This document shows, piece after piece, positions 24,845 to 27,126 of a stretch of DNA of 64,000 nt (its first letter is position 1; every line of letters starts with the position of its first letter). The stretch spans positions 62,001 to 126,000 of the forward strand of contig NZ_SPQP01000007.1 in assembly GCF_004571075.1 (NCBI RefSeq), in the 5' to 3' direction. The translations under genes were made by a program, and so were the position numbers. The notes beneath the pieces are model-generated. The model had not been told where the DNA came from. It made no database searches and saw only the letters and a program-made list of their open reading frames with translations. This DNA comes from Blastococcus sp. TF02A-35. Lineage in GTDB: Bacteria; Actinomycetota; Actinomycetes; Mycobacteriales; Geodermatophilaceae.

Positions 24845-25435
24845 TCAGCTCCCCCCGACCCGGAAGACGCTGGTCACGAGGGCGTCCAGGACGGTGGTCG
24901 CCGCCTCCAGGTCCGGGGCGCGGGCCGCCAGCACGTCGGAGTAGAGGAAGGACTCCCCGAGCCGCACCACGGCCAGCGCCAGCAGCGGGACCGGCACCTG
25001 CGGCTGGAACCCGTGCTCGTCCACGTCCCGCTGGAAGAGCGCGGTGTAGGCCTCGACGACCCGGGGCTGCACGCGCCCCTGCGGGTCGGTGAGGATCCGG
25101 ATCGCCGTCGAGGGCTCCTCGTCCAGCAGCCGGCGGATCGGCACGGCGGTGCTCAGCGCGTAGCGGAACTCCTCGCTCACCGCCAGGCACCGGAGCCGGC
25201 CCGAGGACGCGGTGTCGGCCCGCCGCTCGTCGTACCGCCGCTCGATGGCCCGCAGGGTGCGGTGGCCCAGGGAGGACAGCGCCTCGCCGAGGATCGCGTC
25301 GCGGTTGCCCGCTCGCCGGAACAGCGTCGCGCGGGAGATGCCGAGCTCGGCGGCCAGCGTGCCGGTGTCCAGCCGGCGGCCGGCCAGCAGCGTCTGCGCG
25401 GCGCAGCGGACGACGTCGTCGGGCGGGCCGGTCAC
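24845..25435 (-). CDS. TetR-family regulator (QsdR-like)
   Basis: 196 residues from the GTG at 25435. HTH with [24 protein letters not shown], then the QsdR-type ligand domain ([20 protein letters not shown]). The frame can be extended to a GTG at 25498, but that would put the terminator-like hairpin of the upstream cutinase gene inside the coding region, so I prefer the shorter form; neither start has a strong ribosome-binding site. It follows the cutinase gene on the same strand, so it could control it (inference). Confidence 0.8.
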
Positions 25436-25453
25436 CGGGGCAGGGTAAGCCGA

Positions 25454-25488
25454 AGGGGCGGGCCCCGACGTGGTCGGAACCCGCCCCT
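25454..25488 (-). terminator. Two-stage hairpin after cutinase gene
   Basis: Nine-base stem AGGGGCGGG (25454-25462) / CCCGCCCCT (25480-25488) with an inner five-base stem CCGAC/GTCGG around GTG. It lies 15 bases beyond the cutinase stop on the minus strand. Confidence 0.65.
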
Positions 25489-25502
25489 CCTCGGTCACCG
25501 GC

Positions 25503-26378
25503 TCACATGGGGCAGGTGGCCCGGTAGTCCGAGATGTCCCCGAGCAGGGAGACGCTCGGTCCCGGGCAGAGGAACTGCGTGTACCGGGTGTCGGCGTCCA
25601 CGAACCGCTTGAGCCAGGCGATCGAGCTCGACGCGATGTCGTCGTCCGGCGAGTTCGGGGCGAAGTGGCTGGCGTTGTTCAGCTCGAGGTAGGCGCGCTC
25701 CGACGCGTTGGTCAGGCTGTTGTAGAACGGGATGGAGTGGCTGGAGACCGGCGCCACGCTGTCGTTCTCGGCACCGATCACCAGCGTCGGCGTCGTGACC
25801 TCGGGCCAGGTCTTGTCGGTGTTCCAGCCGGTCAGCGGGATCGCCGCCCGCAGCGAGGGCCGGTCCTTGGCCGCCTCCAGCGTCCCTCCACCGCCCATCG
25901 AGTGCCCCATGACGGCGAGGCGGTTGGCGTCCACCCGTGAGCGGACCGAGCTGGTCCGGGTCAGGTAGTCCAGCGCCGCGAGGAGCTGGTCGCCACGGGC
26001 GGACGGCTGGTCGTAGCGGGAGTTGGTGTTGAACGTGATGACGACGAAGCCCTGCGAGGCGATGCGCGGGCCGAGCCAGGCGATCGTGGACTCCGAGGCG
26101 GTGTACCCCGGGGAGATCGCGACGCCGCCGAAGGTCCCCGACGTCGTGCTCGTCGGGTAGTAGATCGTCGCGGACCCGAAGCCCGGGCTGGCCAGGTCCG
26201 AGACCGAGGTGGAGCTGACGGCGAAGGGGCCGCGCTCGGCGGTGATGCTGGCCTGGGTGGGTGCGGGACCACGCCACCAGGACGGGTCGGCCGAGGCCGG
26301 GACCGCCGTGGCGACGGCGGTGGCCGCGGCGAGGGTGAGGGCCGCGAGGGTGCGCGACATCATGCGAGGAAGGGGCAC
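25503..26378 (-). CDS. Secreted cutinase / PET-hydrolase-like polyesterase
   Basis: 291 residues. GTG start chosen because GAAAGG lies six bases upstream; signal peptide ends ~[17 protein letters not shown]31. The mature part matches the actinobacterial cutinase/PET-hydrolase family (TfCut2, LCC) along its full length. Catalytic Ser160 in [12 protein letters not shown], Asp206 in [10 protein letters not shown], His238 in NNASHFAPN; oxyanion/subsite residues Tyr92 in SPGYTASES, Met161, Trp185 in PLTGWN. It has the His214/Phe218 pair of thermophilic cutinases, not the Ser/Ile pair of IsPETase. A C-terminal disulfide is expected between Cys271 ([11 protein letters not shown]) and Cys289. Activity on PET or cutin is inference. 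Confidence 0.93.
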
Positions 26379-26514
26379 GGTGGACCTTTCGGCGAGAGCC
26401 GCGGAGCACTGCGGCTGCTGAGGGGGGATCCACCGACGCACCGGGCCCGGCTGTGACGCGCGTCACCGTCGATGTGCGAGCACCGTAGCGCCGGACCGCG
26501 CCGTGCCGCAACAC

Positions 26515-27126
26515 TTACGAGATCTGTCTCATCCATCGCGTCCGCCGGGCGTCCGGCGCGGAGTACCGGCCGCCGTCCGCCTCCGGCGCGCCCACCGGCG
26601 GGTGCGGGGCCAGCCAGGTCCGGCGGGGCCGCTCCAGCAGCCACGACTCCTCGATGCGGACGCCGGTCAGCCGCTCCATCAGCGTGAAGGCGAGCGCATC
26701 GGGGTCGGCGTCCTCGTCGGCGAAGTCCAGGCCCTCCTCCTCCGGCAGCGGGTCCCCCTCCTCGTCGCCGGGCACGACCGGGTCGAAGGCGCGGACCACC
26801 TCCCCCCGGCGCGCCACGAGGAACTCGGCGTGGGCGTTGACGTTGCGGAAGGAGGAGACCGCCGTGCCACCACGGGACAGGCGGGCCAGCAGGTCCCGGT
26901 CGGCCAGCTGGAAGCCGTTGGGCTCCACGACGACGAGCCAGCCCTCGAGCTCCTCCACCTGCACCGGGAAGTGGTCGGGGCCGCCCTCCGCGTCGGCCTC
27001 GTCGAAGGTCCGCATCCGCTCGGTCGACGGGTCGAGCCGCAGGAGGTGCGCGACCTCCTCCAGCCACCCGCCTTCGAGCATGGTGATCGTGTACGCCTCC
27101 ATGTCGACCCAGTCGTAGCCGCTCAC
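26515..27126 (-). CDS. DUF6461 protein
   Basis: 203 residues, GTG start overlapping the LigD-polymerase stop by four bases (GTGA). DUF6461 pattern: SSFRNVNAHAEFLVARRGEV followed by VRAFDPVVPG, EEEGLDFADEDADP and a C-terminal helix LMERLTGVRIEESWLLER. Function unknown; these proteins occur in actinobacteria, often in clusters of paralogues. Coupling to a DNA-repair polymerase gene is notable but may be incidental. Confidence 0.8.
   Translation of the reverse strand: MSGYDWVDMEAYTITMLEGGWLEEVAHLLRLDPSTERMRTFDEADAEGGPDHFPVQVEELEGWLVVVEPNGFQLADRDLLARLSRGGTAVSSFRNVNAHAEFLVARRGEVVRAFDPVVPGDEEGDPLPEEEGLDFADEDADPDALAFTLMERLTGVRIEESWLLERPRRTWLAPHPPVGAPEADGGRYSAPDARRTRWMRQIS

Follow-up and report, generated by a model that had tools for sequence, protein, structure and literature searches.

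The locus described here raises two related questions: what a PETase-family hydrolase of Blastococcus acts on, and whether the TetR-family gene that follows it controls its expression. The locus is found within 64,000 nt of DNA from the soil actinobacterium Blastococcus sp. TF02A-35, termed the window, and all of its features are on the minus strand. An earlier note on this DNA had proposed a secreted cutinase resembling PET hydrolases, in a lineage not usually discussed for plastics, with the TetR gene as a possible regulator.

The hydrolase gene and its product

The gene is at positions 25503–26378 (minus strand) and consists of 291 codons plus a stop codon, with a GTG start and a TGA stop. 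It is the single PETase-type hydrolase gene of the genome. A Shine-Dalgarno-like GAAAGG is present 5' of the start (26385–26390, minus, read by eye), and similar stretches were seen by eye upstream of the cutinase genes of relatives. In the 11 cutinase upstream regions compared (the window, nine relatives and L056, a further Blastococcus), the start codon is GTG in ten and ATG in one (L155). Read by eye, the N-terminus is hydrophobic and has an ASA motif followed by DPSWW. Residues 1–30 (26289–26378, minus) represent a probable signal peptide, and the protein is likely secreted.

The translated sequence matches Pfam model PF12740 with 398.6 bits (E = 1.6e-119; curated cut-off, 28 bits). Ser160 (25899–25901), Asp206 (25761–25763) and His238 (25665–25667, all minus) form the catalytic triad, which is found in a GHSMGGGG context. 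Tyr92 and Met161, which we take to be the oxyanion hole, and the active-site Trp185 are also in place, as are His214, Phe218, Cys271 and Cys289. Thus all ten residues that had been named for the mature protein are present, but the numbers are those of the precursor, counted from the GTG. Cys271 and Cys289 align with the C-terminal pair of the reference enzymes, as had been claimed (the local alignment to LCC ended before Cys289). Each is kept in at least 90% of 42 aligned sequences, and the two presumably form a disulfide. The dN/dS of the gene is 0.12–0.24 against three congeners.

An AlphaFold2 model built on the 42-sequence alignment has a mean pLDDT of 84 and a pTM of 0.85; the 27 N-terminal residues (pLDDT < 50) and the tail from about residue 271 are its weak parts. 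The best 50 of 1,943 PDB matches to the model are cutinases, PET hydrolases and close lipases, with a TM-score of about 0.9 by target length. The structure-prediction check suggested in the earlier note thus returned the family fold. In the phylogenetic tree the hydrolase falls within the cutinase/PETase clade, nested among actinobacterial members of the family; long branches leave the positions of the T. fusca enzyme, LCC and IsPETase uncertain. The 11 sequences from Geodermatophilaceae group in a single clade (support 100/99), which fits a single ancestral gene and repeated loss. Pfam, alignment, phylogeny and fold model together bear out the assignment to the PETase/cutinase type.

Comparison with known enzymes

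The best named homologues are from Blastococcus, Modestobacter and Geodermatophilus; that of Blastococcus aurantiacus DSM 44268 is 87% identical. Among solved structures, an alpha/beta hydrolase of Thermomonospora curvata (7YKQ) and a Streptomyces exfoliatus lipase (1JFR) show 72% and 70% identity, respectively, each over 253 residues, and both have the triad, the fold and the C-terminal cysteine pair in common with the hydrolase. Identity to LCC (4EB0) is 62% and to a Thermobifida fusca cutinase (5ZOA) 60%; these share the triad, the Tyr, Met and Trp, and the His214/Phe218 pair. Both are thermostable enzymes with demonstrated activity on PET.

IsPETase is 50% identical and has the same triad and C-terminal cysteine pair, but its second cysteine pair is absent from the hydrolase. 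Ala240 is opposite one of these IsPETase cysteines and Ala203 opposite the other, the latter read between aligned positions 202 and 206. His159, His214, Phe218 and Phe239 replace Trp, Ser, Ile and Ser of IsPETase, i.e., positions 159, 214, 218, 239 and 240 follow LCC and not IsPETase in the alignment. The absence of a second disulfide together with His159, His214, Phe218 and Phe239 is what we take to define a type I (cutinase-like) PET hydrolase, and by alignment the enzyme has these type I residues.

The nearest solved relatives carry lipase names, and the protein may be a lipase whose main substrates are soluble esters and triglycerides and which does not act on polymers. In a study of the family (PMC9686282), Blastococcus aurantiacus DSM 44268 is the sole strain annotated with a triacylglycerol lipase, and we infer that this annotation refers to the gene of the 87% identical homologue. 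We regard the lipase reading as rather unlikely. Degradation of PCL and PBS is reported for a related lipase from Amycolatopsis (PMC7851449). In addition, LCC and the T. fusca cutinase also have the Tyr found here at position 92, where both lipases (7YKQ and 1JFR) have Phe.

The TetR gene and its association with the hydrolase gene

The TetR gene (24845–25498, minus) starts 4 nt downstream of the hydrolase stop codon. Its true start may be a GTG at 25435, near where the matches of several relatives begin, in which case the spacing is 67 nt. The product is of the QsdR type (PF18598, 118.9 bits; curated cut-off, 33.7 bits), and this is the sole PF18598 gene in the genome. The single PDB match at E 0.001 is QsdR of Rhodococcus erythropolis (4ZA6, E = 2.2e-11), the repressor of the qsd lactonase operon, which likewise has PF18598. 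QsdR represses the operon until quorum-signal lactones release it (PMC6262395), and qsdR is divergent from qsdA (PMC4640858). In the window, by contrast, the proposed target is a PETase-family enzyme and the TetR gene is downstream of it. The TetR gene is flanked by the PETase-family gene and by a DUF4262 gene, neither of which encodes a phosphotriesterase-like lactonase. A similar gene order is found in the lipA-lipR pair of Streptomyces, in which the regulator gene of a lipase comes directly after the lipase gene (PMC12134079). Enzyme and contiguous regulator are common to both systems, but LipR is a LuxR-family activator, whereas the window regulator is of the TetR family and would be a repressor.

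The hydrolase is present in 10 of 112 Geodermatophilaceae genomes (4 of 23 within the genus), and in all ten the TetR gene adjoins it. L056 provides an eleventh case. A further 13 genomes of the family have a TetR match (E 1e-30 or better) and no hydrolase, and in 11 of these the match is at the same locus. Two TetR genes from such cutinase-less loci have a dN/dS of 0.23, i.e., they are under purifying selection; the regulator may therefore have, or have gained, another target. At ten cutinase-less loci of the family that retain the TetR gene, no matching repeat of the type described below was found. One genome (G055) has, beside the TetR gene, a degraded stretch of 34 residues that matches the C-terminal end of the cutinase (L143:6804-6905).

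The pairing is not a general rule. In a class-wide sample of 345 genomes, 66 have the PETase family, and TetR and PETase genes are adjacent in just 2 of the 66 at the thresholds used. These counts may be low, since the number of candidates scored for each genome was small. In G393 the PF18598 and PETase genes are about 5.5 kb apart.

Inverted repeat and predicted promoter

A 23-bp inverted repeat, GAGACAGATCTCGTAAGTGTTGC, is present in front of the hydrolase gene (26508–26530, minus) and overlaps the end of the upstream ORF. It is proposed as the TetR operator. A predicted -35 box, TTGCGG (26506–26511, minus), and a predicted -10 box, TACGGT, 18 nt past it (26482–26487, minus), were read by eye. 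The right arm of the repeat has four bases in common with the -35 box, also by eye. The repeat thus overlaps the predicted promoter, a position that suits a repressor.

The repeat precedes all 11 cutinase genes. Ten have the exact pattern GNRACA-N11-TGTTNC and L056 has one mismatch, although the 11 promoters are dependent evidence because of common descent. The pattern has one exact match in the window against 0.06 expected (6 of 100 shuffles had a match), and one in the whole genome, with none for the reversed control. The window's repeat is imperfect, such that the pattern fits one strand only; the same is true of G012. A search of 32 genomes gave 81 matches summed over strands, compared with 38 for the control. 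Sites that fit on both strands are found in 17 of the 26 genomes with PF18598 and in none of the six without it.

The TetR gene may, on the other hand, be a positional neighbor, with the repeat serving another regulator and the cutinase controlled by different means, e.g., by a CRP/FNR-type protein at GTGA-N6-TCAC. A perfect palindrome of this kind, GTGACGCGCGTCAC, is found just downstream of the predicted -10 box (26453–26466), and GTGA-N6-TCAC is present in four more of the 11 cutinase upstream regions. The retention of TetR in genomes without the cutinase is also consistent with independent control. This explanation is nevertheless considered improbable. The two-strand repeat is linked to genomes with PF18598 by the counts given above, even though several of the 17 sites are far from the TetR gene (as in G055, G112, G116 and G127). 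The repeat also recurs near PF18598 genes in other neighborhoods, including those of G053, G123 and G275, where it is near the TetR start.

Repeat and regulator in other genomes

The proposed control of the enzyme by the TetR protein through the 23-bp repeat can be compared with arrangements elsewhere in the family and class. In G011 the place of the cutinase is occupied by an unrelated and probably secreted hydrolase (PF20091, 414 bits), and the 23-bp repeat is about 130 bp in front of it. This genome played no part in defining the motif. The suggestion that the TetR gene regulates the enzyme thus gains comparative support from the co-occurrence in 10 of 10 genomes, from the operator-like repeat, and from the presence of this repeat before the replacement hydrolase. 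A PF20091 hydrolase gene next to a PF18598 TetR gene is found in two genomes, which belong to different families (L137:4801-6264 and L172:2402-3820).

In G070, from another family of the same order, the repeat is between the TetR and PETase genes. This genome has nine PETase-family matches, eight of which are just 44–54% identical to the query. In L160 a QsdR-like TetR (226.7 bits to 4ZA6) faces a phosphotriesterase-family gene across GAGACACACTCCATGAGTGTCTC; this repeat, GAGACA-N11-TGTCTC, is identical to that of the window in left half-site and spacing.

A class-wide scan used a matrix made from the cutinase promoters alone. The best site in 8 kb was within 200 bp of the TetR start, itself approximate, at 11 of 27 PF18598 loci, and not near the TetR gene at the other 16. 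Across 300 dyad-preserving shuffled matrices the mean was 2.6 and the highest count 9; none reached 11. The 27 loci were taken from 37 PF18598 matches. Those omitted were the window's own genome and L173, which has the site before the cutinase; G289, G296 and G412, which are partial or weak matches above the cut-off; and five matches below it.

Four genomes of the Actinoplanes group (L012, L018, L022 and L031; 9–11 Mb) each have a single PF18598 match, and in all four it is divergent from a PETase gene. This is an independent arrangement of the same pair, though with a different repeat: the 23-bp repeat is absent from the Actinoplanes intergenic regions examined, and the pairs have in common an imperfect GGATCG...CGATCC-like repeat in the gap. 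The gap in L022 also contains repeated segments.

Two further copies of the 23-bp repeat are present in G113, before a thiolase gene (L189:2007) and an acyl-CoA dehydrogenase gene (L190:1967). Among 11 loci with other two-strand sites, nothing obvious was found downstream outside these two. G113 has a second PF18598 gene, and for this reason no regulon is claimed from its sites. A scan of 15 hand-picked proteins, 13 of them near PF18598 genes, is not a survey. It comprised one PETase, two hydrolases of the PF20091 type, a candidate lactonase of the phosphotriesterase family, two acyl-CoA dehydrogenases, a thiolase and an AMP-binding ligase, and in addition a kinase, a flavin monooxygenase, two dehydrogenases (an alcohol and a short-chain dehydrogenase) and an MPAB/Lcp-type oxygenase. 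These neighbors point to ester, lactone or acyl products as the ligands.

Substrate and proposed mechanism

It is highly improbable that the enzyme is a genuine PET hydrolase through which the organism uses PET: the enzyme's active-site residues match those of LCC and a Thermobifida cutinase, but it scores 467.3 bits against the nearest NCBIfam model (NF051441, bis(hydroxyethyl) terephthalate hydrolase BdeA), below the 520-bit equivalog cut-off, and the single clade of the family's copies suggests that the gene is older than plastics. In vitro activity on PET would be plausible by analogy with other PETase-type enzymes. The genome does encode one tannase-family protein (PF07519, 405.7 bits; G000:C8:63007-64455, L198:1501-2949, minus), and among PDB entries this protein matches MHETase best (E = 5.7e-93). 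As an MHETase partner it was rejected, since it has GGSNGGR and GMGHV where MHETase has GCSEGGR and GMNHC, and so is without the active-site cysteine pair. The stretch that contains what we take to be Arg411 and Ser416 of MHETase is poorly aligned and gapped. The tannase-family protein has a secretion-like N-terminus, and its gene adjoins an ORF resembling an ABC-transporter ATPase.

Most likely the hydrolase acts outside the cell and breaks down polyesters and lipids of plant or microbial origin. As a secreted type I serine esterase it would cleave the ester bonds of natural aliphatic polyesters and lipids by means of the Ser160-Asp206-His238 triad. The QsdR-type TetR protein would bind the 23-bp repeat overlapping the promoter and repress, rather than activate, the operon. 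A small ester-derived product, such as a fatty acid, a hydroxy acid or a lactone, would release it, and the enzyme would therefore be made while its substrate is being broken down. We consider it probable that the locus encodes such an esterase for polyesters and lipids, under a downstream TetR repressor that acts at the 23-bp repeat and responds to an ester product.

A broader reading, put forward tentatively and with some doubt, is that QsdR-type TetR proteins with a GNRACA-N10/11-TGTTNC operator are sensors of ester and acyl products that have been recruited repeatedly, to lactonases, beta-oxidation genes and polyesterases that are secreted. The window's regulator would then be a repressor, and a biosensor, of polyester breakdown.

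Among the matches listed from the open-access literature, judged by titles and the starts of abstracts, no PETase-family enzyme from Geodermatophilaceae was found, in agreement with the view that this lineage is little discussed for plastics. A TetR repressor of a cutinase or PETase was likewise not among the matches listed from that literature. The enzyme adds a member to a well-studied family and is by itself just one more homologue, as the 66 of 345 class genomes with the family indicate; the new part is the regulator. With a dedicated repressor and a defined operator, the natural substrates behind the evolution of the PETase family become testable, and whatever ligand releases the repressor probably resembles the natural product of the enzyme. 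The TetR protein and its repeat represent a candidate transcriptional sensor for polyester hydrolysis. If the sensor-family reading is true, it gives a PETase-family enzyme a natural, identifiable inducer.
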